From Mesorhizobium sp. C432A (GTDB lineage: Bacteria > Pseudomonadota > Alphaproteobacteria > Rhizobiales > Rhizobiaceae): a DNA stretch of 64,000 bases. The first letter of the stretch is position 1; every line of letters begins with the position of its first letter. Location: contig NZ_CP100470.1 of assembly GCF_030323145.1 (NCBI RefSeq), positions 3,079,001 to 3,143,000 on the forward strand, given 5' to 3'. Of the stretch, positions 9,723 to 55,486 are shown one piece after another. The notes beneath the pieces were generated by a model that worked only from the letters and a program-made list of their open reading frames with translations, searched no databases and was not told the DNA's origin. The translations under genes and the position numbers were made by a program.

Positions 9723-11168
9723 TCAAAACGGATAGTGCTGCCCCGGATCCTCGATGGTTAGCCAGCGCAGGTCGGTGAACTCGGCGATCGAGGCCTTGCC
9801 GCCGAAGCGGCCGTAGCCTGAACCCTTGACGCCGCCGAACGGCATTTGCGCCTCATCGCCGACGGTCGGGCCGTTGATGTGGCAGATACCGGCTTCGATG
9901 CGCGCGGCGACCGCCATGGCACGGCGGATGTCGCGGCTGAACACGGCTGAAGACAGGCCGTATTCGGTATCGTTGGCGACACGTACCGCTTCGTCCTCGC
10001 CCTTGACGCGGATCACCGGCTTGACCGGGCCGAAGGATTCTTCCGAATAGACGCGCATCGCCGGCGTCACGTGGTCGAGCAATGTCGCCTCGACCACGGT
10101 TCCGGTGCGCTTGCCGCCGGCCACAAGCCTGGCGCCCTTGGCGACGGCGTCGGCAACCAGTTCTTCCATCTTGTCGGCGGCTTGGTCGCTGATCAGCGAA
10201 CCGAGCACGACATGGCCGCGCGGGTCGCCGGCAGGCAGCTGCGCGGCGCGGGCGGCGAGCTTGGCGACGAATTCGTCGGCGACCTTTTCATCGACGACCA
10301 GACGCTCGGTCGACATGCAGATCTGGCCCTGATGCATGTAGGCGCCGAAGGTCGCGGCATTGACCGCGGCGTCGATGTCGGCATCGTCGAGCACGACCAG
10401 CGGCGCCTTGCCGCCGAGTTCGAGCAGCGCCGGCTTCAAGTGACGGCCGGCGAGTTCGGCAATGATCCTGCCGACCTTGGTCGAGCCGGTGAAGTTGACA
10501 CGCCTGACTGCAGGGTGCGCGACCAGTGCCTCGACGATTGTCGCTGCGTCCTTGGGATCATTGGTGACGACATTGATGACGCCCTTGGGCAGGCCGGCCT
10601 CGACCAGCACCTGGCCGATCAGCCGGTGTGTGCCTGGGCACATTTCGGAGGCTTTCAGCACAACCGTGTTGCCGCAGGCGATCGGCATGGCGATGGCACG
10701 GGTTCCGAGGATGACCGGTGCATTCCACGGCGCGATGCCGAGGCAGACGCCGGCCGGCTGGCGGATCGCCATGGCCAGCGTGCCGGGCTTGTCGGAGGGA
10801 ATGACCTCGCCCGAAATCTGCGTCGTCATGGCGGCTGCCTCGCGCAGCATTTTGGCGGCGAGCATGACGTTGAAGCCGGCCCAGGGGCCGGTCGCGCCGG
10901 TTTCTTCCATCATCAATTTGGTGAATTCGCCGACCTTGGAGTCCATGACATCGGCCGCCTTGGACAGCAAAGCGCGGCGCTCGCCCGGACCGGTCTTCGA
11001 CCACGTCTTGAAAGCGGCAGCAGCGGCTTCGACCGCGGCATTGGCGTCGGCGATGCTGGCTGCGGCAGCGCGGGTCGCCAGCTTGCCGGTGAACGGGTCC
11101 ATGCGCTCGTAAGAGGCTGAGCCGGAGGCATCCCTTTTATCGCCGTCGATCAGAAGTCCGATGTCCAT
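9723..11168 (-). CDS. Aromatic-type aldehyde dehydrogenase (vanillin/benzaldehyde dehydrogenase-like)
   Basis: NAD(P)-dependent aldehyde dehydrogenase of 481 residues. Visible motifs are PWNAPVILGTRAIAMPIACG for cofactor and substrate binding, FTGSTKVGR for NAD, LELGGKAPLVVLDDAD with the general-base Glu, and GQICMSTERL with the catalytic Cys, then EESFGP. The overall pattern is that of the salicylaldehyde/vanillin/benzaldehyde dehydrogenase branch. It is the last gene of the run that starts at the ABC binding protein (16787) and includes the coniferyl-alcohol-dehydrogenase-like SDR. A plausible task is oxidation of aromatic aldehydes to acids that then enter the protocatechuate pathway encoded next door. 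Exact substrate is inferred. Confidence 0.88.
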   Translation of the reverse strand: MDIGLLIDGDKRDASGSASYERMDPFTGKLATRAAAASIADANAAVEAAAAAFKTWSKTGPGERRALLSKAADVMDSKVGEFTKLMMEETGATGPWAGFNVMLAAKMLREAAAMTTQISGEVIPSDKPGTLAMAIRQPAGVCLGIAPWNAPVILGTRAIAMPIACGNTVVLKASEMCPGTHRLIGQVLVEAGLPKGVINVVTNDPKDAATIVEALVAHPAVRRVNFTGSTKVGRIIAELAGRHLKPALLELGGKAPLVVLDDADIDAAVNAATFGAYMHQGQICMSTERLVVDEKVADEFVAKLAARAAQLPAGDPRGHVVLGSLISDQAADKMEELVADAVAKGARLVAGGKRTGTVVEATLLDHVTPAMRVYSEESFGPVKPVIRVKGEDEAVRVANDTEYGLSSAVFSRDIRRAMAVAARIEAGICHINGPTVGDEAQMPFGGVKGSGYGRFGGKASIAEFTDLRWLTIEDPGQHYPF

Positions 11169-11257: not shown

Positions 11258-12043
11258 CTAGAAGCCGAGCACCTCGGCATTGATCGATGCTTCAAGCCCA
11301 CCGTCAACCGGCACATTGGCGCCGTTGACCCAGCGTGCGCCGTCCGAGCACAGGAACAGCACGACAGGCGCGATGTCGCCCGATGTGCCGGCGCGGCCGA
11401 CACGGGCGATGTCGCTATCGACGCGGGCGTCGCCCAGCACATTGCGGAACTGTTTGAGGATCGGCGTCTCGACCGGGCCGGGGCTCACTGCATTGACGCG
11501 GATGCCGCGGCTCCTGAACAGGTCCTGATGCGCGGCGCTCTGCGTCCACAACAGCAGCAGCTCCTTGGAAACGGAATAGCCTTCCTCGTTCTTCACCTGA
11601 TGGTCGGCGACCACCTCCGCCACATCGGGAAAGCCTTCGATGCCGACCATCGATGCCGCGCGGTTGAGATTGGCGCGCCAGCCATAGCCGGCGATCGAGG
11701 CGACGTTGACCACGGCGCCGCCTTCACGAAGTCTGGGTGCGAGGCCTTCCGAGAGCGCGCGCAGGCCGTAGAAGTTGACGGCCAGTGTCGACACCGCACC
11801 GGTGTTGCCGGGGAGGCCGGCGACATTGCAGAGCGCATCGATGCGCTGCGGCAGGCGCCCGAGGAGATCGTCGACGCCGGCCTTGGATGAGATGTCAGCC
11901 TTGACGAAACTGCCGGCCGATGCTGCCGGTTCACGCACGTCGACGCCGATCACGTCAGCGCCCAGTTGGCCGGCAAGTTCGGCCGTGCGAGCGCCGATAC
12001 CAGAGGCGACACCGGTGATGAGGATGGTCTTGCCGAACAGCAT
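11258..12043 (-). CDS. Short-chain dehydrogenase, coniferyl-alcohol-dehydrogenase-like
   Basis: Classical SDR of about 261 residues with the NAD loop TGVASGIG, the NVAG motif (CNVAGLPG), the catalytic Ser region VVNVASIAGYGW and Tyr-Lys in GYSVSKELL. A long insert between Ser and Tyr (RAASMVGIEGFPDVAEVVAD) is typical of the coniferyl-alcohol/3-alpha-hydroxysteroid dehydrogenase branch. ATG 12043 has AAAAGG seven bases upstream and is preferred to a GTG at 12049 that overlaps the permease stop. It sits between the ABC permease genes and the aldehyde dehydrogenase, suggesting stepwise oxidation of an imported aromatic alcohol to aldehyde to acid. The substrate is inferred. Confidence 0.85.
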   Translation of the reverse strand: MLFGKTILITGVASGIGARTAELAGQLGADVIGVDVREPAASAGSFVKADISSKAGVDDLLGRLPQRIDALCNVAGLPGNTGAVSTLAVNFYGLRALSEGLAPRLREGGAVVNVASIAGYGWRANLNRAASMVGIEGFPDVAEVVADHQVKNEEGYSVSKELLLLWTQSAAHQDLFRSRGIRVNAVSPGPVETPILKQFRNVLGDARVDSDIARVGRAGTSGDIAPVVLFLCSDGARWVNGANVPVDGGLEASINAEVLGF

Positions 12044-12045
12044 GG

Positions 12046-13110
12046 TCACGCCTTTTCACTATGTGTTGCGGTCTGTTGCGGCGAAGGCGTGGCGTCGCTA
12101 TCGCCGGCGTTTGCCGGCAGCCTGACGCGATAGCCGACCGGTAGCAGGCGCAGGCCAAAGCGCTCCTCCAGCGTTCCCCACAGGCCGCGCGGCAGGAAGA
12201 GCGAGAACAGCACCGCCGTGGCGCCGAGACCGATCAGATACCAGACGCCGGTGCCGCCGAACCAGGTCTCGATGAGGAAGAACAGCAGCGCACCCAGAAT
12301 GGCGCCCTCGAAGGTGCCGATGCCGCCGACCAGGACCATGAAGATCATGTAGGCGGTCCACTGGACGTTGAAGTAGGTTTTCGGCTGGAAGGTGATCGAC
12401 GTGGCCAACCACAGCGCGCCGGCCATGCCGATGCCGAAGGCGGCGAGCACGAAGAGCAGCCGCTTGGTTCCGGTGACGCGCACGCCGACCGATGCCGCGG
12501 CCTCCTCATTGTCCCTGATGGCGCGGATGGCCGCACCCGTGCTGCCACGCAGCAGGCTAAACAGGGTGGCGAGCAGCGCCGTCATCGCGGCCATCGCCAG
12601 CCAGTAGATCGTCGCCCGCCTGACGCCGGCGTCATAGACGTTGAGCGAGATCAGCGACGTCCCGGTCTCGCCTTGCACCAGCCGGTCGAGATTGACCAGG
12701 AGATGGGTGAGCGCCGCGATCACCCACATGCCGATGGCGAACTCGCCGTTCTTCAGCTTCAGCATGAACAGCGACATTGGCCAGGAGATCGCGCCGACGA
12801 TGATCGCCGAGACAAACAGAGAAGCGAACGGGTTGAGGCCTGCATCGGCCAGGCGGATAGTGAAATAGGCGCCGAGGCCGAAGAACACTTGCTGTCCCAC
12901 CGAAACCAGCCCGCCGAAGCCGGCCAGCGCATTCCACATCGCCGCCAGCATCACATAGATGAACAAGGCGGTCATGCGGTCGACGGCGCCGGCCGACAGG
13001 AAATGCGGCGCAACAGCGAGCAGCGCGATGATGACGACGACCGCGATCGCCGAGATGCGCGAGGCGGAGGTGCCGCGCTCGATGACGGGGGCGTTTAAAA
13101 CCGCACTCAT
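12046..13110 (-). CDS. Branched-chain-type ABC transporter permease (LivM-like)
   Basis: Inner-membrane permease of about 354 residues with repeated hydrophobic segments and the LivM hallmark AAMWNALAGFGGLVSVGQQV near residue 60. The permease core motif AAIRAIRDNEEAAASVGV follows, then GGIGTFEGAILGA near residue 270. The start at 13110 overlaps the LivH stop by ATGA. It ends with a polar tail of about 40 residues. It works with the LivH, LivG, LivF and binding-protein homologues encoded just upstream in the same operon. Confidence 0.92.
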   Translation of the reverse strand: MSAVLNAPVIERGTSASRISAIAVVVIIALLAVAPHFLSAGAVDRMTALFIYVMLAAMWNALAGFGGLVSVGQQVFFGLGAYFTIRLADAGLNPFASLFVSAIIVGAISWPMSLFMLKLKNGEFAIGMWVIAALTHLLVNLDRLVQGETGTSLISLNVYDAGVRRATIYWLAMAAMTALLATLFSLLRGSTGAAIRAIRDNEEAAASVGVRVTGTKRLLFVLAAFGIGMAGALWLATSITFQPKTYFNVQWTAYMIFMVLVGGIGTFEGAILGALLFFLIETWFGGTGVWYLIGLGATAVLFSLFLPRGLWGTLEERFGLRLLPVGYRVRLPANAGDSDATPSPQQTATHSEKA

Positions 13111-14003
13111 GATGCTTTCCTCGCGGGCAGGCGCAGCAGGCCGCGCAGGCCGAGGCCGGAGGTGGAGAGCCGGATGAACAGCACGATCAGGAAGGCGACA
13201 TGGCCGCCGATCAGAAAACCTTGCGGATGGATCTGCGCGCCGAGGGTCTGGGCGAGCGCCAGCACGATGCCGCCGACCAGCGTGCCCCATAGCGAACCGG
13301 CGCCGCCGATCACCGCCGCCTCGAAAGCGAACAGCAATTGAGGTGCGCCGGTATAGGGATCGAAGGTGGCGCGCATGGCGAGGAAGGCGCCGGCCAGCCC
13401 AACGGTGACCATGGCGATGGCGGCGGCGAGGGCATTGGCGCGGCGCGCATCGACGCCGACGAGACCGGCCGTGTCGGGATCTTCCGACGTGGCGCGGATC
13501 GAGCGGCCAAGCCTGGTGCGGGTGAGGAACAGCTGCAGTCCGCCAAGCAATATGACGGCGGCGGCGAACATGATCACGGCAAGCTTGCCGACATAGATGC
13601 TGCCCGGCCATTCCCAGGAATCGTAGGAGAGGCTGCCGATATAGGGCGCCAGCGAACGTGTGTCGGCGCCGAACTGCTCGAACAGCGCATTGTCGATGAC
13701 GATGGCGAGGCCGAACGTGGTCAGGATCGGCAGGAGCGCGCCGCCGCGGGCGCTGCGCTCGAGCAGGAAGCGCTGCAGCGCCCAGCCGATGGCCGCCATC
13801 AGCGGCAGCACGATGAGCAGGCCGACGAAGGGCGAGATATGGAATTGCGAGGCGAGCCACCACAGCGCGTAGGCGGAAAACACGGCCAGGCTGCCATGCG
13901 CGAGGTTGATTATGCGCATCACCGAAAACATGAAGGAGAGGCCGCAGGCGATCAGCGCGTAGTAGCCGCCGAGCAGGATGCCCTGGACGATCTGGTTGCT
14001 CAT
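13107..14003 (-). CDS. Branched-chain-type ABC transporter permease (LivH-like)
   Basis: Permease of 298 residues beginning MSNQIVQGILLGGYYALIAC, the usual LivH N-terminus, with NLAHGSLAVFSAYALWWLA just after. The cytoplasmic loop reads IRATSEDPDTAGLVGVD, and the late motif GGAGSLWGTLVGGIVLALAQ matches the family. It is translationally coupled on both sides by four-base ATGA overlaps with the LivF- and LivM-like genes. It forms the membrane channel with the LivM-like protein. Confidence 0.92.
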   Translation of the reverse strand: MSNQIVQGILLGGYYALIACGLSFMFSVMRIINLAHGSLAVFSAYALWWLASQFHISPFVGLLIVLPLMAAIGWALQRFLLERSARGGALLPILTTFGLAIVIDNALFEQFGADTRSLAPYIGSLSYDSWEWPGSIYVGKLAVIMFAAAVILLGGLQLFLTRTRLGRSIRATSEDPDTAGLVGVDARRANALAAAIAMVTVGLAGAFLAMRATFDPYTGAPQLLFAFEAAVIGGAGSLWGTLVGGIVLALAQTLGAQIHPQGFLIGGHVAFLIVLFIRLSTSGLGLRGLLRLPARKAS

Positions 14004-14728
14004 GCCGGCACACTCCCGGCGCTTTTCCTGTGCAGGCCGAAATAGGCTTTCGTCACTTCATCGCGGGACATGCCCTTGCTCGGGCCTTCCAGCGCGACGC
14101 GTCCTTCGAGCATGCAGATGACCTTGTCCGAGACCGAGAGCGCGCGATTGAGGTCCTGTTCGACCAGGATGATCGTCGTGCCGGAGCTGATCAGCCCTTG
14201 CAGCGAAGCGTATACGCGATCGACCACCAGCGGCGACAGGCCGAGCGAGACCTCGTCGAGCAGCAGCAGCTCCGGATTGCTCATCAACGCGCGGCCGATG
14301 GCGGTGGCCTGCTGCTCGCCACCGGAGAGATGCCCGGTCTTGGCGTGGCGGCGCGGCTTCAGATTGGGGAACGTGTCGAGCACTCGTTCCACGCTCCAGT
14401 CGCCGGGACGGCCGGCGGCCTTGCCAAGCAGGAGGTTCTCCTCGACCGTCATCTGCACGAACAGTTTTCGCCCTTCCGGCACCAGCGCGACGCCCATGCC
14501 GACGCGCTTGTGCGAGGGAACGCCGGTGATATCGGCGCCATTCAGCAGCACGCGGCCGGCCGTCGGCTCATGGGCGCCGGCGATCGCCCGCAGCAGCGTC
14601 GTCTTGCCGGCGCCGTTGGCGCCGACCAGCGCCAGCGTTTCGCCGCGCTCGATCGAGAAGTTCACGCCGCGCACCGCCTGCAACAGGCCGTGGCGGACGA
14701 CCAGATTCTCGATTGCGAGCAGGCTCAT
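14000..14728 (-). CDS. Branched-chain-type ABC transporter ATPase (LivF-like)
   Basis: ABC ATPase of 242 residues. Walker A is GANGAGKTTL, the signature is SGGEQQATAIGRAL (LivF-type), Walker B is LLLLDEVSLGLSP, and the H-loop is replaced by ILVEQD, as is usual in LivF. ATG 14728 overlaps the LivG stop by ATGA. Together with the LivG-like protein it powers uptake through the two permeases. Confidence 0.92.
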   Translation of the reverse strand: MSLLAIENLVVRHGLLQAVRGVNFSIERGETLALVGANGAGKTTLLRAIAGAHEPTAGRVLLNGADITGVPSHKRVGMGVALVPEGRKLFVQMTVEENLLLGKAAGRPGDWSVERVLDTFPNLKPRRHAKTGHLSGGEQQATAIGRALMSNPELLLLDEVSLGLSPLVVDRVYASLQGLISSGTTIILVEQDLNRALSVSDKVICMLEGRVALEGPSKGMSRDEVTKAYFGLHRKSAGSVPA

Positions 14729-15465
14729 TTCGGGCCTCCGCCGAGATAGGCCCGCACGACTTCGGGGTCGGCCATCACCGCTTGCGGCTCGCCGTCGGCG
14801 ATGATCTTGCCGGCGTCCATGCAGATCAGCCGCTCGGCCACCTGCAGCAGGATGTGGACGATGTGCTCGATCCAGACGATGCCGATCTTGCGGCGGCGCA
14901 ATTCCTTGATGGTATCGACAAGTTCGCTCGCCTCGCCATCGGTCAGTCCGCCGCCGATCTCGTCGAGCAGAAGCAGCGTAGGCCTTGCCGCGAGCGCGCG
15001 GGCAAGTTCCAGCCGCTTGCGGTCGAGCAGGCCGAGCGTTTCGGCGCGCCGGTTGGCCACGCCCATCATGCCGCACAGTTTCAGCGACTCCAGCGCCTCT
15101 TCATAGGCCTCGTCGCGGGCGAGACCGGCGCCATGCGACGCGGCAACAAAAACGTTCTCGAACGTGGTCATGCCGCTGAACGGCTTGGGCACCTGGTGCG
15201 TGCGCACCAGGCCGAGACGACAGCGCGCTGTAGCCGGCATCGCGGTCACATCGCCACCCTTGAAGGCGACCGTGCCGGCGCTCGGCGGGAAGGCGCCTGA
15301 TAAGATGCTGAGCAGCGTCGTCTTGCCGGCGCCGTTCGGACCGACGATGCCGACGGCCTCATCGGCATTCATGGCGAAGTCGACATCGTCGAGCACCACC
15401 AGCGCGCCGAAGCGTTTCTGGATGCCGGCAGCGCGGAGGATCGCGGCGTTTGCTGAACCGTTCAC
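14725..15465 (-). CDS. Branched-chain-type ABC transporter ATPase (LivG-like)
   Basis: ABC ATPase of 246 residues. Walker A is GPNGAGKTTLL and the LivG-type region RTHQVPKPFSGMTTFENV follows. The canonical LSGGQ signature is replaced by ETLGLLDRKRLELARALA, as often in this branch. Walker B is LLLLDEIGGGL and the switch region reads IVWIEH. It lies 23 bases after the binding-protein gene and is coupled to the LivF-like gene by an ATGA overlap. Confidence 0.9.
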   Translation of the reverse strand: MNGSANAAILRAAGIQKRFGALVVLDDVDFAMNADEAVGIVGPNGAGKTTLLSILSGAFPPSAGTVAFKGGDVTAMPATARCRLGLVRTHQVPKPFSGMTTFENVFVAASHGAGLARDEAYEEALESLKLCGMMGVANRRAETLGLLDRKRLELARALAARPTLLLLDEIGGGLTDGEASELVDTIKELRRRKIGIVWIEHIVHILLQVAERLICMDAGKIIADGEPQAVMADPEVVRAYLGGGPK

Positions 15466-15488: not shown

Positions 15489-16787
15489 TCAGCTGTTATA
15501 CGGCTGGAGCTTGGCCTCGACCGGAACCTTCGGGTCGGTGGCGTTCTCGGTCACGACGTAGTCGAGCGGGAATTTGCCGCCTTCCTTGGCCGCCACCCAT
15601 TGGGTGCCGATGATCGGGCCGGGAGAGACATTGGCGACCGGGCCGCTGGTGAAGTCGACCTTGCCGATCATGGTCTCGGTGTTGAGCGTGCTCAGCGCCT
15701 TGGCGACGGCCGCCTTGTCCTTGGCGTCGGTGCTTGCCTTCAGCGCCTCGAAGCCGGCGTCGAGCAGCGACATCGAGGCGCCGAGCTGCTGCGTCCACTG
15801 CTTGCCGCTGGCGGCCTCATAACCGTCGGCCAGTTCGGTCCCCGAAACGCCGGTCAGCGGCGACTTGTAGGGAAAGGCCTTGTGCCAGTAAGCGGCGCTC
15901 GAAATCTTGTTGCCGAGATCGCCCAGCGCCTCGATGTCGGACGGGAACAATCCGGTCTTGGCGACCTGGCAGATCTTGATCTGCTTGATCAGGCCTTGCT
16001 GTGCAGCCTGACGCCAGAAGGCGGCGAAGTCCGGCGGGATCGGGAAGGAGTTGAAGATCTCGACGCCTTCCTGCTTGAACAGCGCGATCTGCGAGGAATA
16101 GTCGGTGGTGCCGGTCTCGTAGGCGCCGGGATCGACGATGGTGAAACCCTGCTTTGCCAGCAACGGCGCCAGATGGGTGCGGATGGCATTGCCGTCGGCG
16201 TCGTTGGGATACATGACGCCGACCTTCTTGTTGGTCTCGATCAGGCTCCATTGCGAGATGTAGGTCCGGAAGAACTCGTCGACGCCGAAGCCGAAATGAT
16301 AGGTCCATTTGAACGGCGAGGGTTCGCCGGGCTTGGCGCCGCGGCCGAAATACCAGGCCTCCCACGGCATGACGGTGGAGAGGCAAGGCACGCCGGCGGC
16401 TTCGCAGGCGTCGGCGACCGGGTTGATCACCTCCGGCGTCGACACCGCCAGCATCAGGTCGACGGCCTGGTTGTTGATGAGGTCCTTGGCGAGCTGGCCG
16501 GCGCGCGACGGGTCGGATTGCGTGTCCTGGTCGATGATCTCGACACTGTATTTCTTGCCGCCGATGTCGAGGCCGTTGGCGAGCGCCTTGCGGGCGAGAT
16601 CGAGCACATAGCCGTCGGTCTGGCCGAAGCCGGCGAGCGGCCCGGTGCGCGGGCTGACAAAGCCGACCTTCAGCGTGTCGGCGGCCTGCGCGAATGCCTG
16701 GCCGCGGCTGAGCGCAAGTGCCGCGCCGCCGGCGAGCGATGTGGCGATGAACTGGCGCCGCGAGACGCCGGATTTGCTTGAGGTCAT
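15489..16787 (-). CDS. Periplasmic substrate-binding protein of branched-chain-type ABC transporter (Tat signal)
   Basis: Extracytoplasmic binding protein of 432 residues, the first gene of the transporter operon. The N-terminus carries a twin-arginine signal (SRRQFIA within the first 15 residues, hydrophobic stretch, then AFAQA), so it is probably exported folded. The mature part begins with LKVGFVSPRTGPLAGFGQTD, typical of LivK-type type I periplasmic binding proteins. GGGAGGA precedes the ATG. A PcaQ-type promoter lies about 180-230 bases upstream, so the likely ligand is an aromatic acid of the protocatechuate route or a precursor rather than an amino acid. The ligand is inferred from regulation and operon content. 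Confidence 0.9.
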   Translation of the reverse strand: MTSSKSGVSRRQFIATSLAGGAALALSRGQAFAQAADTLKVGFVSPRTGPLAGFGQTDGYVLDLARKALANGLDIGGKKYSVEIIDQDTQSDPSRAGQLAKDLINNQAVDLMLAVSTPEVINPVADACEAAGVPCLSTVMPWEAWYFGRGAKPGEPSPFKWTYHFGFGVDEFFRTYISQWSLIETNKKVGVMYPNDADGNAIRTHLAPLLAKQGFTIVDPGAYETGTTDYSSQIALFKQEGVEIFNSFPIPPDFAAFWRQAAQQGLIKQIKICQVAKTGLFPSDIEALGDLGNKISSAAYWHKAFPYKSPLTGVSGTELADGYEAASGKQWTQQLGASMSLLDAGFEALKASTDAKDKAAVAKALSTLNTETMIGKVDFTSGPVANVSPGPIIGTQWVAAKEGGKFPLDYVVTENATDPKVPVEAKLQPYNS

Positions 16788-16965
16788 GCTGGTATTCCTC
16801 CCTTTCCTGACGGCACCTGGAGGTCACCGCCGGCCTGCTCAAAATCGATGCCGCCCGTTCTTAAGATCGGAGATCGCCCCGGCATGCCTTGAGGCGGCAG
16901 CGGAACGCCGCCAATGCCGATAACGGCACGATTTCGATCCTCCCATCGTCACAGTGCCCTAGGTG

Positions 16966-17016
16966 TTTGGTTTGGTAAAATGATATTTTGCGGTGTTTCG
17001 TTAACCAACAGGTTAT
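16966..17016 (-). promoter_or_regulatory. PcaQ-type operator and conserved promoter block for the ABC/aromatic-oxidation operon
   Basis: On the minus strand the 16 bases at 17016-17001 read ATAACCTGTTGGTTAA, an exact match to the ATAACC-N4-GGTTAA motif described for PcaQ in rhizobia. Eleven bases further on, 16989-16966 carries a 24-base block identical to the one in front of pcaD at 18015-18038, with the same spacing from its box. A leader of about 180 bases separates the block from the binding-protein start at 16787. Confidence 0.8.
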
Positions 17017-17063
17017 GGAAATACGGCTGAAGGCCCGCTCTGCGCCAGATTGGCGAAAGGTGC

Positions 17064-17981
17064 TCAGGCGTTCTGGCTGGCCGCCTCGCGAATGGTCTGC
17101 AGCAGGATGGTGAAGGCCGGCGAAGGCGCAGTGTCGGTCCGCATCGTCAGGCCGACGGGCCCTTTGGTTTCCTCGGTGTTGACGGGCAAGGCGACGAAGG
17201 CGCCGCTGGAGAGTTCGTTGGCGACGACGCCTGTCGATATGATCCAGACCGCATTGCTTTGGCGCAGGAAGGCACGGCCGAAGGAATCCGAGACGGTCTC
17301 GATCTCGGTCGCAGGCGCCGTCATGCCGTTGGTGATGAACAGGCGGTCGACGAACGGGCGGATGACCGACTCCCGCGTCGGCATCAGCACCGGGAATTCA
17401 TCGAGCCGGGCGAAGATGTCCTGGCCCGGCTGCAGCAGCGGATGGCCGGCCCTCACCACGAACAGCACCGGTTCGGAATAGAGATGCTCGAAGAAGAAGC
17501 CGGTCATGTTTTCCGGCGCCGCAAGCCGGCCGACGACGAGATCGAGCGCACCGACGCGCAACTGTTCCAGCAGGACCGCGTTCTCGCCGGTGACGATCTT
17601 GATCGCAGCACCGGTATTTTCACTCAGGAACAGGCTTATGGCGCGTGGCATCACCTTGGCCGACACTGTCGGGAGCGCGCCGATGCGGATCGGATGCCGG
17701 TTGATGGCGCCGTCCTGGCGGACGGAATCGACGCCGCGCTTCAGTGCCGTGATCGCCGTGCCGGCATGGCCGAGAAAGATTTCGCCAAGCCGCGTCACCC
17801 TGATGCCGCGGCCGTCGCGTTCGACGACAGCGATGCCAAGCGCCTCCTCCAATTCGCGCAACGTCTTGGTCACGGCCGGTGGGCTGACATGGAGAAAGTC
17901 GGCCGCCCTCGCCACGCTGCCTTGCCGCGCTACCTCAAGGAATGCCTGCAGGTGACGGAACCTTATGCGGCTTTCGGACAT
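17064..17981 (-). CDS. pcaQ: LysR-type regulator PcaQ of protocatechuate catabolism
   Basis: LysR family activator of 305 residues. The N-terminal winged helix (about 1-65) reads FRHLQAFLEVARQGSVARAA then VSPPAVTKTLRELEEALG; the remainder is the periplasmic-binding-like effector domain. It is divergent from pcaD with a PcaQ-type box only six bases before its own start, so autoregulation is likely. In Agrobacterium and Sinorhizobium PcaQ activates pcaDCHGB in response to pathway intermediates such as carboxymuconolactone or carboxymuconate. Here a second box lies downstream in front of the ABC operon, suggesting a two-operon regulon. Placement and motif matches make the identity strong. Confidence 0.93.
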   Translation of the reverse strand: MSESRIRFRHLQAFLEVARQGSVARAADFLHVSPPAVTKTLRELEEALGIAVVERDGRGIRVTRLGEIFLGHAGTAITALKRGVDSVRQDGAINRHPIRIGALPTVSAKVMPRAISLFLSENTGAAIKIVTGENAVLLEQLRVGALDLVVGRLAAPENMTGFFFEHLYSEPVLFVVRAGHPLLQPGQDIFARLDEFPVLMPTRESVIRPFVDRLFITNGMTAPATEIETVSDSFGRAFLRQSNAVWIISTGVVANELSSGAFVALPVNTEETKGPVGLTMRTDTAPSPAFTILLQTIREAASQNA

Positions 17982-17987
17982 GTTCTC

Positions 17988-18038
17988 ATAACCTAGCAGT
18001 TAATGAAACGGCGTAAAATATCATTTTACCAAACCAAA
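17988..18038 (+). promoter_or_regulatory. PcaQ-type operator and promoter block for pcaDCHGB-pobA
   Basis: Bases 17988-18003 read ATAACCTAGCAGTTAA, one mismatch from ATAACC-N4-GGTTAA. The 24-base block 18015-18038 is identical to the one upstream of the ABC operon, again 11 bases from the box. pcaD starts 35 bases later. The box sits directly in front of pcaQ on the other strand, so it can serve both genes. Confidence 0.8.
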
Positions 18039-18073
18039 TGCCTTGTGCAATGTGAACACGGAGGATCGAAATC

Positions 18074-18883
18074 GTGCCATTCGTCAACATTGGCGGCATC
18101 ACGCTGCACCATCGCCATATCAAGGCGAAGGGAAATGCGCGGCCGATCGTGTTCATCAATTCGCTGGGCACCGACTTCCGCATCTGGGACGAGGTGTTGT
18201 CCGAACTGGGTGGCGAAATGCCTGTGTTGGTCTACGACAAGCGCGGCCATGGCCTGTCCGACATTGGTGGCGTCAGCTCGATCGACGAGCATGTCGATGA
18301 TCTGTCGGGCCTGATCGATCATTTCGAACTGAACAATGCGGTGCTGTGCGGCCTGTCGGTGGGCGGCCTGATTGCGCAAGGGTTTTATGCCCGGCGCCCC
18401 GAAATCGTCGACGGCCTCATCCTGTGCGACACCGCCCACAAGATCGGCACGGCCGACAGCTGGAACACCCGCATCGAAACGGTCGAAAGCAAAGGCATCC
18501 AGGCCATCGCCGATGCCGTGCTCAAAATGTGGTTTACGCCTGCCTTCCACGCGGACCGTGTCGCCGAGCTCGACGGCTACTGGAACATGATGACCCGGCA
18601 AGCCGTCGCCGGCTATGTCGGCACCTGCGCCGCGGTGCGCGATGCCGATTTTACCGAGGCTGCGCAGGCGATCGCGGTGCCCACGCTTTGCGTCGTTGGC
18701 GACCAGGACGGCTCGACGCCGCCGGATCTCGTCCGCTGGCTGGCCGATCTGATCCCAGGCGCACATTTCGAAATCATTCGTGACGCCGCGCACATCCCTT
18801 GCGTCGAACAGCCCGAGGCGCTGACCACCCTGATCCGCGATTTCGTCGCGGCGCTTCCCATGAGAAAGCAGACCCATGGATGA
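18074..18883 (+). CDS. pcaD: 3-oxoadipate enol-lactonase
   Basis: Alpha/beta hydrolase of 269 residues hydrolysing beta-ketoadipate enol-lactone to beta-ketoadipate. The nucleophile elbow is GLSVGG with Ser at about residue 95. An acid in VVGDQDGSTPP and a His in DAAHIP complete the triad, and YDKRGHGLSD is the usual enol-lactonase segment. The start is GTG 18074 with GGAGG nine bases upstream. It is the first gene of a compact operon and overlaps pcaC by eight bases. Confidence 0.95.
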   Translation: MPFVNIGGITLHHRHIKAKGNARPIVFINSLGTDFRIWDEVLSELGGEMPVLVYDKRGHGLSDIGGVSSIDEHVDDLSGLIDHFELNNAVLCGLSVGGLIAQGFYARRPEIVDGLILCDTAHKIGTADSWNTRIETVESKGIQAIADAVLKMWFTPAFHADRVAELDGYWNMMTRQAVAGYVGTCAAVRDADFTEAAQAIAVPTLCVVGDQDGSTPPDLVRWLADLIPGAHFEIIRDAAHIPCVEQPEALTTLIRDFVAALPMRKQTHG

Positions 18884-19289
18884 ACTGCCCAAAAACGAAA
18901 CCAGATACCGAACCGGGCTGACCGTCAGGCGCTCGGTGCTCGGCGACCCTCATGTCGATCGCAGCGAGGATGCCGTCACCGATTTCGACCGGCCGTTCCA
19001 GGAGCTGATCACCGAGGCAGCATGGGGCACTGTGTGGGCGCGTCCGGGCTTCAGCAGGCGCGAACGCTCGATCGTGACGCTGGCACTGCTGGCCGCCCTT
19101 GGCCATGATGAAGAGGTCGCCATGCATGTGCGCGCCACCGCCAACACCGGTGCGTCGCGCGACGATATCTGCGAAGCGTTCCTGCATGTCGCGATCTATG
19201 CCGGCGTGCCGGCGGCCAACCGCGCCTTCAGGATCGCCAAGGAGGTGTTTTCGGAAATGGACGGAAGCAGGGCTGGCCATGCCAGCTGA
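18876..19289 (+). CDS. pcaC: 4-carboxymuconolactone decarboxylase
   Basis: Small all-helical enzyme of 137 residues that decarboxylates gamma-carboxymuconolactone to the enol-lactone. Characteristic stretches are [30 protein letters not shown] and the conserved [18 protein letters not shown], followed by [16 protein letters not shown]. It is a stand-alone PcaC and not the fused PcaL form. It overlaps pcaD by eight bases and pcaH by eleven. Confidence 0.95.
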
Positions 19290-20034
19290 TGCCGGCTCGA
19301 ACCGCAGGCCCGAGACCGGCGCCTTCTTCCAGCGCGACCGCGGCTGGCACCCGCCGGCGCTGACGCCCGACTACAAGACTTCGGTGCTGCGCTCGCCGCA
19401 AAAGGCGCTGCTGGCCTTCGACAACACGGCGTCGGAGATCACCGGTCCGGTGTTCGGCCACGCCGTGCTGGGCGAACTCGACAATGACCTGATCCACAAT
19501 TTTGCAAAGTCCGGCGAGAGCGCCATCGGCGAGCGTATCATCGTCTATGGCCGCGTGCTCGACGAGCGCGGCCAGGGCGTCTCCGGCGCGCTGCTCGAAT
19601 TCTGGCAGGCCAATGCGGGCGGCCGCTACCGCCACAAGAAGGACGGCTATCTGGCGCCGCTCGATCCGAATTTCGGCGGCTGCGGCCGCACCATCACCGA
19701 TGCCGACGGCGGCTATGCCTTTCGCACGGTGAAGCCAGGTCCCTATCCCTGGCCGAACGGGCCCAATGACTGGCGGCCGTCGCACATCCATTTCTCGGTG
19801 TTCGGCCACGGCTTCGCACAGCGGCTGATCACCCAGATGTATTTCGAGGGCGACCCGCTGATCTGGCGGTGCCCGATCGTGCGCGGTATCCGCGACAAGG
19901 CGGCGATTGAGACGCTGGTTGCCGCGCTCGACATGCAGGCGACGATCCCGTTCGACGCGCGCGCCTACAAGTTCGACATCGTGTTGCGCGGACGCCGCGC
20001 CTCGCTGTTCGAAAACCGTCCGGAGGGCAATTGA
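19279..20034 (+). CDS. pcaH: Protocatechuate 3,4-dioxygenase beta subunit
   Basis: Catalytic Fe(III)-binding subunit of the intradiol dioxygenase that opens protocatechuate to 3-carboxy-cis,cis-muconate. The 251-residue protein has the beta-subunit N-terminus ([17 protein letters not shown]) and the iron site: Tyr in [12 protein letters not shown], Tyr in [10 protein letters not shown] and two His in [13 protein letters not shown] 19279 overlaps the end of pcaC by eleven bases. The stop overlaps the pcaG start by one base. Confidence 0.95.
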
Positions 20035-20648
20035 TGGCGCAATCGCTGACCCGGCTGAAGGAGAGCCCGTCGCAGACCGCCGGGCCCTACGTGCATATCG
20101 GGCTGACGCCGAATTTCGGCGGTATCGGCGGCGTCTACCCGACAGACCTGGGCGCCACGATGCTCAACGACAACGCCAAGGGCGACCGCATCGGTTTGCG
20201 CATTCGCGTGCTCGACGGCACCGGCACGCCGCTCAGGGATGCGTTGATCGAGATCTGGCAGGCGGATGCCAATGGCTTCTACAATTCGCCGGCCGAATTG
20301 CGCGGCGATGCCGATCCGGATTTTCAGGGCTGGGGCCGTCAGCCGACCGACATGGAAACCGGCCTGTGCAGTTTTCAGACGATCAAGCCGGGACGCGTGC
20401 CGTATGGCGACGGCCGGCTGATGGCGCCGCATATCAGCCTGTGGATCGTCGCCCGCGGCATCAATATCGGCCTCCACACGCGGCTCTATTTCTCCGACGA
20501 GGCCAAGGCCAATGCCGAGGATCCGATCCTGGCCCGCATCGAGCACAAGGTGCGCGTGCCGACGCTGATCGCCGAGCGGCAAGGCGACGACTATATTTTC
20601 GACGTCCATCTCCAGGGGGAGAAGGAAACGGTCTTCTTCGACAGCTGA
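20034..20648 (+). CDS. pcaG: Protocatechuate 3,4-dioxygenase alpha subunit
   Basis: Non-iron subunit, 204 residues, sharing the intradiol dioxygenase fold (TPSQTAGPY-like start as SPSQTAGPYVHIGLTP, then LIEIWQADANG, GWGRQPTD and PHISLWIVARGINI). It lacks the beta-type double-His iron motif, as expected for an alpha subunit. GGAGGG precedes ATG 20034, and its first base is the last base of the pcaH stop. The protein assembles with PcaH. Confidence 0.95.
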   Translation: MAQSLTRLKESPSQTAGPYVHIGLTPNFGGIGGVYPTDLGATMLNDNAKGDRIGLRIRVLDGTGTPLRDALIEIWQADANGFYNSPAELRGDADPDFQGWGRQPTDMETGLCSFQTIKPGRVPYGDGRLMAPHISLWIVARGINIGLHTRLYFSDEAKANAEDPILARIEHKVRVPTLIAERQGDDYIFDVHLQGEKETVFFDS

Positions 20649-20664
20649 CGGAGGAAACCAGCAC

Positions 20665-22889
<2,225 letters not shown>

Positions 22890-24109: not shown

Positions 24110-24898
24110 TCATGCAGCCTTTTCTTTTCCGCTTCCCTCATGCGCCGCCTTGGTGCGGGCCTGCAGGTCACGCAATGTCGTCAGCTCGAGTTCCGTCGGC
24201 GCCGGCGTTTCGTCAAGCGCCTCGGCGAACTTTACGATCCAGCCGCAGCTGTCCTGCACCTGCTGCCGCGTCACGCCGGGATGCAGCGACACCACGGTGA
24301 ATTCCTTGCTCATCGGGTCGGGCTTCCAGATGGCGAGGTCGGTGATCAGCAGCGTCGGTCCAGCGGTGTCGATGCCTAGGCGCTGGCGGTGATCGCCCCC
24401 ATCGCCATGGCCGAAGGAGGTGAAGAAGTCGATCTTCTCGACCATGCCGCGCTTGGACTGCGCCATGGTGATGTAGATCTCCTTCGACGAGGTGGCGATC
24501 TCCGGCGCGCCGCCGCCGCCGGGCAGGCGGGTCTTGGGATGCGCATAGTCGCCGATGATGGTGGTGTTGATGTTGCCGAACTTGTCGAGCTGGGCGGCAC
24601 CGAGGAAACCGATCGAAATGCGGCCGCCCTGCAGCCAGTAACGAAACATCTCCGGCACCGAGACGGTCGTGACGGCGGTGTCGCAAAGTTCGCCGTCACC
24701 GATCGACAGCGGCAAAACATCGGGCGCGGTGCCGATGGTGCCGCTTTCATAGATCAGCGTGATGTCGGGCGCATGCGTCAGCCGCGCGACGTTGCAGGCG
24801 GCTGACGGCGCGCCAATGCCGACGAAGCAGACATCGTCGTTTTTCAGGGCTCGGCTGGCGGCAATCGTCATCATCTCATTGGGAGTAAAGCCGCTCAT
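24110..24898 (-). CDS. pcaJ: 3-oxoadipate CoA-transferase subunit B
   Basis: Beta subunit (262 residues) of the succinyl-CoA:3-oxoadipate CoA-transferase. The catalytic Glu that forms the CoA thioester is in IYESGTIGTAP near residue 50. GGRISIGFLGAAQLDKFGN and TRLPGGGGAPEIAT are typical of the subunit. The start overlaps the pcaI stop by ATGA. Its partner gene pcaI is frameshifted, so as assembled the enzyme would be incomplete. Confidence 0.92.
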   Translation of the reverse strand: MSGFTPNEMMTIAASRALKNDDVCFVGIGAPSAACNVARLTHAPDITLIYESGTIGTAPDVLPLSIGDGELCDTAVTTVSVPEMFRYWLQGGRISIGFLGAAQLDKFGNINTTIIGDYAHPKTRLPGGGGAPEIATSSKEIYITMAQSKRGMVEKIDFFTSFGHGDGGDHRQRLGIDTAGPTLLITDLAIWKPDPMSKEFTVVSLHPGVTRQQVQDSCGWIVKFAEALDETPAPTELELTTLRDLQARTKAAHEGSGKEKAA

Positions 24899-25751
24899 CC
24901 CGCGCTCCTCAGATGCTTTACGCGGCCGGCGAAATCGTCCGCCGTGCGATCGAGGACATTGGCCTGCATCCAGGTCTGGAATTTTTCACGGTCGGCGGCG
25001 ATGTCGTCCCATTCGAGATAGGCGGCGTTGTCCCTGGCATAGTAGCCGTGCGTGTAGGAGGGATGCGAACCGCCTGATACCACCGAGATCGCAGCGATGG
25101 TCCAGCGCGGCAGCACGGTGAGGTTGGGATGCAGGTCGTCGAAATTGTCGACGACTTCCTCTACCGTCACCACGGCGCGCTTGGCCGCGAGCACCGCTTC
25201 CTTCTGGATGCCGATAATGCCTTCGACCAGAACATTGCCTTTTTGTCGGCCTTCTGAGCGTGGATGAAGGTCACGTCCGGTCGGATGGAAGGAACGGCGG
25301 CAAGCACCTCGCCGGTGAACGGGCAGGTGACCGAGCGGATGTTGGGATTGACTGCCGCCAGCCCGGCGCCGCGATAGCCGCGGAAAACCGCGCAGGGCAG
25401 GCCGGCCGCGCCCGCCTCATAGGCGTTGGCCATGCCGGCATGGCTGTGCTCCTCGATCTCGATCGCCCGGGGAAAGCCGTTCTCGATGGCATCGCGGGCG
25501 CGGCGCAGCAGGCCGACGCCGGGATTGCCGACATAGGAGAAGATGATCTTCTTCGCCATGCCCATGCCGATCATCTGGTCGTAGATCAGGTCGGGGGTCA
25601 TTCGGATGAGGGTGAGGTCGCGAAAGCCCTGGCGGATCGCCTCATGCGCCGCCGCCGTCGGGATCAGATGGGTGAAGCCTTCGAAGGCGACCGTGTCGCC
25701 ATCGTGCAGGTTCTCCGCCACGGCCTGTTTGAGGCGCAGGAATTTGACCAT
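24895..25751 (-). pseudogene. pcaI: 3-oxoadipate CoA-transferase subunit A, frameshifted
   Basis: The start ATG 25751 opens a frame with FLRLKQAVAENLHDGDTVA and continues normally to IHAQKADKK, then reads unrelated residues from about base 25240. A second frame resumes with VLAAKRAVVTVEEVVDNFD and runs to 24895. Adding one G to the AAAAAGG run at about 25237-25244 (minus strand) would restore ADKKGNVLVEGIIGIQKEAV, the expected PcaI sequence. Everything else in the pathway is intact, so a sequencing slip in a homopolymer is as likely as a real null mutation. The promoter region upstream holds a palindrome suited to PcaR. Confidence 0.88.
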
Positions 25752-25768
25752 CGCAGAAAACTCCAAAA

Positions 25769-29607: not shown

Positions 29608-30669
29608 ATGCGCATGCCAAGACTGACTGCCCTGCTGACGGCGACCGCCGTCATCACCTCCGCGCTCACGCTGGCCGCCAGTGCCGCCGAAGTGCATGTG
29701 CTCAACTGGAAGGGCTACGGCGCCGACGAGCCGTGGGCGATCGAAGCCTTCGAAAAGGCGACCGGCAACAAGGTCGTCAACGACTTCTTCAATTCCGAAC
29801 AGGAAATGCTGACCAAGATCCGCACCAATCCGGGCCTCTATGACGTGGTCATGATCAACGCCGCCTTCAACGATCAGGCGATGGCGGAAAAGCTGATCCA
29901 GCCGATCGATGTCTCGAAGCTGCCGAACTATGCCGACATCAGCAAGGACAAGGCGCAATCGCCGATGCTCGACCATGACGGCAAGGTCTATGGCGTGCCG
30001 TGGGTGTGGGGCCTGACGGCGCTGGCAATCAACGAAAAGTCCTTCGACAAGCCACCGACCTCGATCGCCGAAATGTGGGACCCAGCGCATAAGGGCCGGG
30101 TCGTCATTCGCGACGACGCTGTCGAAGCGGTGCAGTTCGGCGCCATCGCCACCGGTCAGAATATCAACGACATCAAGGATATGGAAGCGGTCAAGGCGAA
30201 GCTGACCTCGCTGATGCCGCAGATCAAGACGTTCTGGAGCTCGGAGAACGACTGGAACCAGATGGTCGCCTCCAACCAGATCGACATCGGCACCTATTGG
30301 AGCGGCTCGGCCGACCGTGCCAAGACGCATTTCAAGCTGCCGGTCTCGCTGGTCGTTCCGCAGGAAGGCGCCGTCGCCTGGCTCGACGCGTTCTCTATTC
30401 CCGTGGGCTCGAAGAATGTCGAGGGTGCGCAGGCCTTCATCAACTGGATGATCGATCCGAAATTCTATGTCGAATGGGTCACCAAGGTCGGCGCGCCGGT
30501 GTCGGCCAACACCAAGGCGGTGGAAGCGCTGCCTGAAGACTCCTTCAACCGCAAGGTGATGGGCGATCCCGAGGTGGCCAAGCGCATCCAGTTCCAGGCG
30601 CCGATCACCGACGCGCAGCGCGAGGCCTATCTGGCGCTGTGGCAGCAGCTCAAAGTCGACGTGAAGTAA
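29608..30669 (+). CDS. Spermidine/putrescine-type (PotD-like) periplasmic binding protein
   Basis: Binding protein of 353 residues with a Sec signal peptide (positive MRMPR, hydrophobic core, cleavage after ASAA near residue 28). The mature part begins EVHVLNWKGYGADEPWAIEA and contains YDVVMINAAFNDQAM and GVPWVWGLTALAIN, typical of PotD-like family members that bind polyamines, aminoethylphosphonate, opines or other solutes. GAGAGGAACG precedes the ATG. It is the first gene of a PotDBCA set, and a stable hairpin follows it. Confidence 0.9.
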   Translation: MRMPRLTALLTATAVITSALTLAASAAEVHVLNWKGYGADEPWAIEAFEKATGNKVVNDFFNSEQEMLTKIRTNPGLYDVVMINAAFNDQAMAEKLIQPIDVSKLPNYADISKDKAQSPMLDHDGKVYGVPWVWGLTALAINEKSFDKPPTSIAEMWDPAHKGRVVIRDDAVEAVQFGAIATGQNINDIKDMEAVKAKLTSLMPQIKTFWSSENDWNQMVASNQIDIGTYWSGSADRAKTHFKLPVSLVVPQEGAVAWLDAFSIPVGSKNVEGAQAFINWMIDPKFYVEWVTKVGAPVSANTKAVEALPEDSFNRKVMGDPEVAKRIQFQAPITDAQREAYLALWQQLKVDVK

Positions 30670-55257: not shown

Positions 55258-55416
55258 GCGCCCCCCTCTGTCCTGCCGGACATCTCCCCCACAAGGGGGG
55301 AGATCAGCAGCTTTGGCGCTTCGGTTCTTTCTGCGCCGCTGGAGATTGGCGAAAACCAGGATGACGGCTGATCTCCCCCCTTGTGGGGGAGATGTCCGGC
55401 AGGACAGAGGGGGGCG
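55258..55416. repeat. 51-bp perfect inverted repeat pair
   Basis: Bases 55258-55308 are the exact reverse complement of 55366-55416, separated by 57 bases. Each arm itself contains an internal palindrome around CATCTCCCCC-ACAA-GGGGGGAGATC. It lies between the CoxD-like stop and the CoxE-like start, so in the operon transcript it would fold into a very strong hairpin. It looks like a paired dispersed repeat of Mesorhizobium-type genomes. Confidence 0.85.
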
Positions 55417-55486
55417 CTGTCCCGCCAGCGTTGCAGAGTGCCCAGGTGAGGCCACCTCGCTATGAACGAGCTGTTGACCTCACACG

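Follow-up and report, generated by a model that had tools for sequence, protein, structure and literature searches.

The importer promoter of a Mesorhizobium locus as an apparent inverted copy of the PcaQ-type pcaQ–pcaD promoter

In Agrobacterium, PcaQ activates the pcaBGHCD operon, according to PMC12285266, and in Sinorhizobium meliloti the PcaMNVWX proteins (the SMb20568 system) are described in PMC4495286 and PMC5002191 as a PcaQ-regulated importer of protocatechuate. We analyzed a stretch of 64,000 nucleotides (hereafter the window) from the single-contig, 6.02 Mb genome of Mesorhizobium sp. C432A (NZ_CP100470.1, positions 3,079,001–3,143,000). The promoter of the S. meliloti pcaDCHGB operon is similar to that of the window: it serves a LysR activator system, carries ATAACC-N4-GGTTAA beside the pcaQ start and has AATATCATTTTAC at the same distance from this box, as does the pcaD promoter of Phyllobacterium. 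In the two stretches of S. meliloti and Phyllobacterium that were examined, a single promoter of this type lies beside pcaQ, whereas in the window it is duplicated. The window also differs from the Sinorhizobium pcaDCHGB arrangement in that its pca operon includes pobA. As detailed below, the best explanation is that a duplicate of the pcaQ–pcaD promoter, inverted and extending through the pcaD start codon, landed before a pre-existing operon for aromatic uptake and oxidation and would so have placed it under PcaQ, a reading that we hold to be quite probable from the sequences compared.

The pcaQ gene (17064–17981, minus strand) encodes a LysR-type activator that matches TIGR02424 with 418.3 bits (cut-off 303.8) and contains PF00126 and PF03466. 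To its right lies the pcaD-pcaC-pcaH-pcaG-pcaB-pobA operon (18074–22889, plus strand), with gaps of −8 to +16 nt, in which pcaH and pcaG were assigned because they resemble annotated genes of Phyllobacterium. The last gene, pobA, shares 4 nt with pcaB and is accordingly placed in the PcaQ operon. To the left of pcaQ and in the same direction, a complete HAAT-type importer is encoded in one operon with gaps of −4 to +23 nt. It comprises a solute-binding protein of the Peripla_BP_6 type (15489–16787, minus strand, as is the whole operon; PF13458, 150 bits), a LivG-like ATPase (14725–15465; LivG is the best model, below its cut-off), a LivF-like ATPase (14000–14719; PF00005), a LivH-like permease (13107–14003; UrtB and LivH models below cut-off) and a LivM-like permease (12046–13104; PF02653). 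The operon continues with a short-chain dehydrogenase (SDR) of the "coniferyl-alcohol dehydrogenase" subfamily (11258–12049; NF009092, 359.8 bits, cut-off 242), which displays the motifs TGVASGIG and YSVSK (residue 158), and, after a gap of 89 nt, with an aromatic aldehyde dehydrogenase (ALDH; 9723–11168). A 2-hydroxyacid dehydrogenase located 253 nt further on is found beside the operon in two of 38 pca-linked loci, that end being cut in some of them, and in genome G524.

The window contains several other features of note. The two importer ATPase genes share an exact direct repeat of some 26 nt (14592–14617 and 15311–15336), which probably reflects a conserved nucleotide-binding motif. The pcaI gene for 3-oxoadipate CoA-transferase subunit A (24895–25766, minus strand) is split over two ORFs, 25167–25766 and 24895–25194. 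Of five relatives tried, L004 and L006 read pcaI in one frame, and L005, L010 and L031 gave no comparable ORF. The split is either a sequencing error or a recent break, and a break would stop the pathway served by the PcaQ regulon unless a second copy exists. A perfect 51-nt inverted repeat with a 58-nt loop (55258–55308 and 55367–55417) looks like a small palindromic intergenic element.

Two candidate PcaQ boxes match ATAACC-N4-RGTTAA exactly, one at the importer promoter (ATAACCTGTTGGTTAA, 17001–17016, minus strand; copy A) and one at the pcaD promoter (ATAACCTAGCAGTTAA, 17988–18003, plus strand; copy B), with the pca operon downstream of the latter. Each box is followed after 11 bases by the 24-base block AAAATATCATTTTACCAAACCAAA, which is identical at 24 of 24 positions between 16989–16966 (minus strand, copy A) and 18015–18038 (plus strand, copy B). 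Boxes and identical blocks had all been placed at these positions by the first-pass annotation, and this is confirmed. When up to two mismatches are allowed, the box pattern gives four matches in the window, namely the two boxes, the first box read on the opposite strand and 30545–30560, and shuffled windows give 0.64 matches on average and 3 at most. The box core ATAACC-N5-GTTA occurs three times in the 6.02 Mb genome, as does a control pattern, and the box by itself is therefore not specific. The third genomic box (3882370), which is without the block and belongs to a pattern no more frequent than its control, was taken as a chance match. A genome search for box and block had been proposed earlier; run as a 20-base pattern with up to three mismatches, the block was found in the whole genome at the two promoters only, against none for the control.

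The likeness noted earlier on both sides of the block was understated. The inverted segment at copy A (17035–16897, minus strand) aligns to 17969–18107 (plus strand) over 140 columns with 77% identity (E 8e-27), and the local alignment score of 146 compares with a maximum of 32 among 500 mononucleotide shuffles. The alignment runs from the pcaQ start to the pcaD ribosome site, the GTG start and about 11 pcaD codons, and the leader of copy A holds a remnant of these last three elements that, as far as can be judged from its sequence, is without evident coding role. The importer promoter is, on this alignment, an inverted duplicate of the pcaQ–pcaD promoter. Because the pcaD start lies inside copy A, copy B is the donor and the copying proceeded from the pcaD promoter to the importer. 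The likeness of each copy A to its own copy B past the ribosome site ranks with the highest 1% of 200 shuffles for 8 of the 39 genomes; it is clear in the window, L004, L005, L006 and L023 (scores 40–43 against shuffle maxima of 20–22) and marginal in L028, L037 and L052. In the other 31 of the 39 A copies the shuffle test detects no pcaD remnant past the ribosome site, as one would expect if the leader is decaying, and for each of these genomes on its own the case is weakest here. A flip of pcaQ by recombination between the inverted copies was seen in none of the 38 pca-linked loci.

The element downstream of the box recurs in promoters of other PcaQ systems. Sinorhizobium and three Mesorhizobium loci have pcaM promoters in which TCATTTT stands exactly 18 bases after the TTA of the box; these promoters are not copies of the pcaD promoter and have no evident longer likeness to it. 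In S. meliloti the box sequence has its centre 134.5 nt away from the pcaM start codon, and for this reason the position figure in PMC5002191 is taken as relative to the transcription start. The arrangement TTA-N18-TCATTTT is present in copies A and B, in the pcaD promoters of S. meliloti and Phyllobacterium, and in the pcaM promoters of S. meliloti and the three Mesorhizobium loci. The fuller grammar TANCC-N6-TTA-N18-TCATTTT is matched in 84 of 394 family genomes, which represent 30 of the 109 genera, and a reversed-pattern control is matched in 7 genomes; the pattern was drawn partly from the same genera as were surveyed, its matches were counted by pattern alone, and a few of them, in small AT-rich genomes, look like chance. 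As a signature of PcaQ promoters, box-N18-TCATTTT extends the box and has greater specificity than the box has by itself, and it may explain why the block is conserved. MacLean et al., in 2011, reportedly mapped a pcaM start that puts the PcaQ site at −73 to −58, and are also said to have reported that ABC systems of other alphaproteobacteria, the present importer perhaps among them, are preceded by sites resembling that of PcaQ. Carried over from pcaM, transcription starts are predicted near 18061 (plus strand) and 16943 (minus strand), which would place the box at −73 to −58 and the block at −46 to −23 in both copies. In LysR-type promoters the latter interval holds the activation site and the −35 element, and LysR activators contact DNA there beside the polymerase. 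A simple scan of 16700–18200 for sigma-70-like promoters found none. Such a site is often missing in activator-dependent promoters, and its absence lends the PcaQ-promoter reading no support either.

Both promoters were extracted from 38 relatives in addition to the window, which gave 39 A and 39 B copies (78 in total); copy A of L052, 2572 nt long with an insertion, is absent from the printed alignment and included in the conservation, neighbour and grammar counts. TAACC is present in 37 and GTTA in all 39 of the A copies, and both are present in 39 of 39 B copies. The strict grammar is departed from in copy A of L027 and L052 (two of 38 loci), by one base of TAACC; in L052 the insertion adjoins copy A. 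The block has a mean column conservation of 0.978 in A and 0.991 in B (39 copies each), and the linker between box and block of 0.947 and 0.937, respectively. At 46–70 nt past the block start, by contrast, copy A has drifted (0.587) and copy B, which is coding there, has not (0.901). The two classes are mostly marked by CTAACC..GGTTA in A and ATAACC..AGTTA in B, and the window's copy A, with ATAACC, is unlike the others in lacking the usual C at the first base. In all 78 copies the nearest neighbours belong to the copy's own position class, which indicates a single, old duplication whose products were kept separately, and rules out ongoing gene conversion between A and B as a general process. 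A single conversion may have occurred within the window's branch, where CCAAACC is common to both copies; elsewhere the sequence is mostly CCGAACC.

The distribution of promoter pair and importer was surveyed in 146 genomes of the genus, with up to two mismatches allowed in the block and the importer recognized by a binding protein of at least 92% identity. The block is matched in 88 genomes, of which 62 have one copy on each strand, 23 a single copy and 3 two copies on one strand. In all 62 paired genomes the minus-strand copy lies at the lower coordinate, at a spacing of 1003–3352 nt (median 1042). The importer is found in 63 of the 146 genomes, that is, in every paired genome and in G519, where it sits at a contig end and which is the only importer genome of the 63 without the pair; conversely, the promoter pair occurs in none of the 83 importer-less genomes. 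None of the 23 single-copy genomes has the importer, and 19 of them have PcaQ at E 1e-80 or better. In G508 the importer and pcaQ are on separate contigs, and in G399 the importer binding protein is read as two pieces. Some 2.3 kb of extra DNA separates pcaQ from copy A in G314, where copy A is still beside the importer gene. The proposal that the ABC operon is linked to PcaQ is well supported by this comparison, in which the operon's promoter is of the complete PcaQ type and persists throughout the genus.

Two individual genomes show other arrangements. In G520, a distance of 1.47 Mb separates copy A from pcaQ, and copy A is followed by a truncated SDR and the ALDH; at this site (L160, 4292–6000) it stands directly 5′ of the last ~47 SDR codons, followed by an intact ALDH, apparently a natural deletion product that keeps a PcaQ-type promoter and the ALDH together. 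G439 contains two pcaQ–pcaD loci (L164 and L165) about 32 kb apart on one contig, with box and block in both.

The captured operon has counterparts outside PcaQ control. Among the best 80 of 245 importer loci, 38 are pca-linked and 42 are not, and the closest relatives of the importer in this set are from Mesorhizobium. In Rhizobium, an AraC-linked ALDH-importer-SDR-ALDH operon contains an orthologous importer (binding protein 83–86%), the SDR and the second ALDH in the same order. The extra ALDH lies directly upstream of the operon in 40 of the 42 other loci, and a divergent AraC gene is found in 39; of the exceptions, L071 and L073 end too early, and L079 has an AraC relative at 32%. In the available sequence of these 42 loci the strict PcaQ grammar is absent from the operon, and the only match, in L055, is at its distant pcaQ. 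The best match to the Rhizobium AraC in the window's genome is at 26%. In a tree of the binding protein, the PcaQ-linked sequences form one clade (100/100), nested among the AraC-type sequences with 90/81 support. The root of this tree is unreliable, as both branches of the outgroup are degenerate, with lengths of 10 and 8.17. The 90/81 support and the direction of the promoter copy suggest that AraC control came first. By this sequence evidence, an operon that already combined import with alcohol and aldehyde oxidation appears to have been rewired to PcaQ by promoter capture.

A comparison with PcaMNVWX reveals a different importer under a similar promoter. Both systems are of the HAAT type and have a PcaQ box with the TCATTTT element, but the likeness of the window's binding protein to the pcaM stretch of S. 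meliloti is confined to about 100 residues, at 35%, and the two importers are not orthologous, contrary to the equivalence with the Sinorhizobium PcaQ-controlled ABC system that was implied earlier. No SDR or ALDH relative was found in the 40.9 kb pcaM stretch of S. meliloti, and no PcaM orthologue in the window's genome (best match 25%). PcaM, at 76% identity or more, is found in 13 of the 146 genus genomes, of which one, G524, also has the window-type importer. Fisher's test on this overlap gives P 0.007 for the 146 genomes and 2e-5 for the 90 with PcaQ, values that are not true probabilities as the genomes are related; 18 of the 90 have neither importer. In G395, G464 and G530 the position next to pcaQ is taken by PcaM together with relatives of its ATPases, and in G524 and G520 PcaM follows pobA. 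Three PcaQ-grammar sites occur in one locus in L005 and in L200 (G524, 16391–17691); in G524 one lies at pcaD, one at the window-type importer and one in front of pcaM, and both importers may therefore be PcaQ-controlled there. The literature search found no report that joins PcaQ to a Mesorhizobium importer; the paper that it yielded concerns S. meliloti networks (PMC4560400). We give an even chance to the wider proposal that the PcaQ-controlled importer has been swapped in Mesorhizobium: an unrelated importer, with alcohol- and aldehyde-oxidizing enzymes of its own, would have come under an inverted pcaD promoter copy and have replaced PcaMNVWX in much of the genus, and PcaQ, a switch for ring cleavage, would now also drive uptake and side-chain oxidation of hydroxybenzyl alcohols or aldehydes, with PobA passing the products to protocatechuate.

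The substrate of the operon was considered from its proteins. The solved structures closest to the ALDH are salicylaldehyde dehydrogenase (6qhn, 611 bits), vanillin dehydrogenase (9ihb, 580) and NahF (4jz6, 565), the next scoring 336 bits; none of the 25 NCBIfam matches listed, out of 45, attains its cut-off, and the SSADH and HpaE models are best by E-value. The closest solved relative of the SDR is a 3-alpha-hydroxysteroid dehydrogenase (82 bits). By sequence, the solved relatives of the binding protein include 4q6w, 3sg0, 4dqd, 4evs, 4ey3/4eyg/4eyk and 4f06, several of which are titled as complexes with hydroxybenzoates, vanillate or phenylpyruvate. Its AlphaFold model is middling (pLDDT 61.6, pTM 0.60). 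The aromatic-acid binding proteins of Rhodopseudomonas palustris and Bordetella (4eyo, 4eyq, 4evs, 4eyg, 4q6w) have the same fold and 16–21% identity to it, some with modest sequence likeness. Naming the ligand from structure was abandoned, as binders of leucine, urea and pyroglutamate score as high and the neighbours are of mixed ligand classes. A genome search with VanA_C gave two matches over the cut-off, of 74.4 bits and of 22.8 bits (24.1 with its neighbours), and the ORF of the first matches neither a further Pfam domain nor, at E 0.001, any NCBIfam model; a clear vanillate O-demethylase was thus not found by this search, a limited statement for which the first match was followed. The feed-in of coniferyl alcohol and vanillin proposed previously rests on the NCBIfam subfamily name and is not supported, and no report naming coniferyl alcohol dehydrogenase together with Mesorhizobium was found in the literature searched. 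With pobA placed in the pca operon and no clear vanillate demethylase among the search results, p-hydroxybenzyl alcohol or aldehyde would be the more economical fit, better than coniferyl or vanillyl compounds.

In the proposed mechanism, each copy would be an ordinary LysR-activator promoter, with the box as the PcaQ recognition site and the block holding the activation site and the −35 element at their predicted positions. PcaQ, with an inducer derived from the pathway, would activate pcaDCHGB-pobA rightward and importer-SDR-ALDH leftward. Through the operon's products, an aromatic alcohol, aldehyde or acid would be taken up and oxidized to a benzoate that feeds PobA and PcaHG. The first-pass annotation had instead raised the possibility of a second protein at the block, and an independent regulator that co-controls both promoters might account for a block that is kept more strictly than the linker or the downstream promoter and that, in copy B, contains the inverted repeat GTAAAAT-ATC-ATTTTAC. 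This we consider unlikely: TCATTTT is found at a fixed distance from the box in pcaD and pcaM promoters of other genera, the block falls on the predicted contact region of a LysR activator, and it occurs nowhere else in the genome at up to three mismatches. The sequence evidence argues that the block is probably the PcaQ activation site and −35 element, for which a separate protein is not needed.

Copy A might also be a functionless by-product of the duplication, the importer being expressed by read-through from pcaQ or from its own promoter; pcaQ and the importer are codirectional and 276 nt apart with no terminator-like site found between them on their strand, and the simple scan found no sigma-70-like promoter in either copy. 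Yet box and block of A are conserved about as in B while the rest of A has drifted, and copy A stays beside the importer despite the DNA inserted before pcaQ in G314, which makes this account quite improbable. Separate origin of box and block before the two operons by selection has a precedent of a kind in the pcaD and pcaM promoters, which share box and TCATTTT without longer likeness, so that convergence or very old descent does occur. Here, however, the 140-bp likeness includes pcaD coding sequence and a ribosome site, which PcaQ contact does not explain, and convergence is very hard to credit. Capture of the pcaQ–pcaD promoter by the importer operon is the reading that we retain.

Regulon rewiring has mostly been inferred from the turnover of short boxes. 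At this locus the event itself would be readable, as the donor's start codon lies inside the captured leader and the source promoter is 1 kb away. Genomes with and without the capture event are available within one genus, and one genome has both importers.
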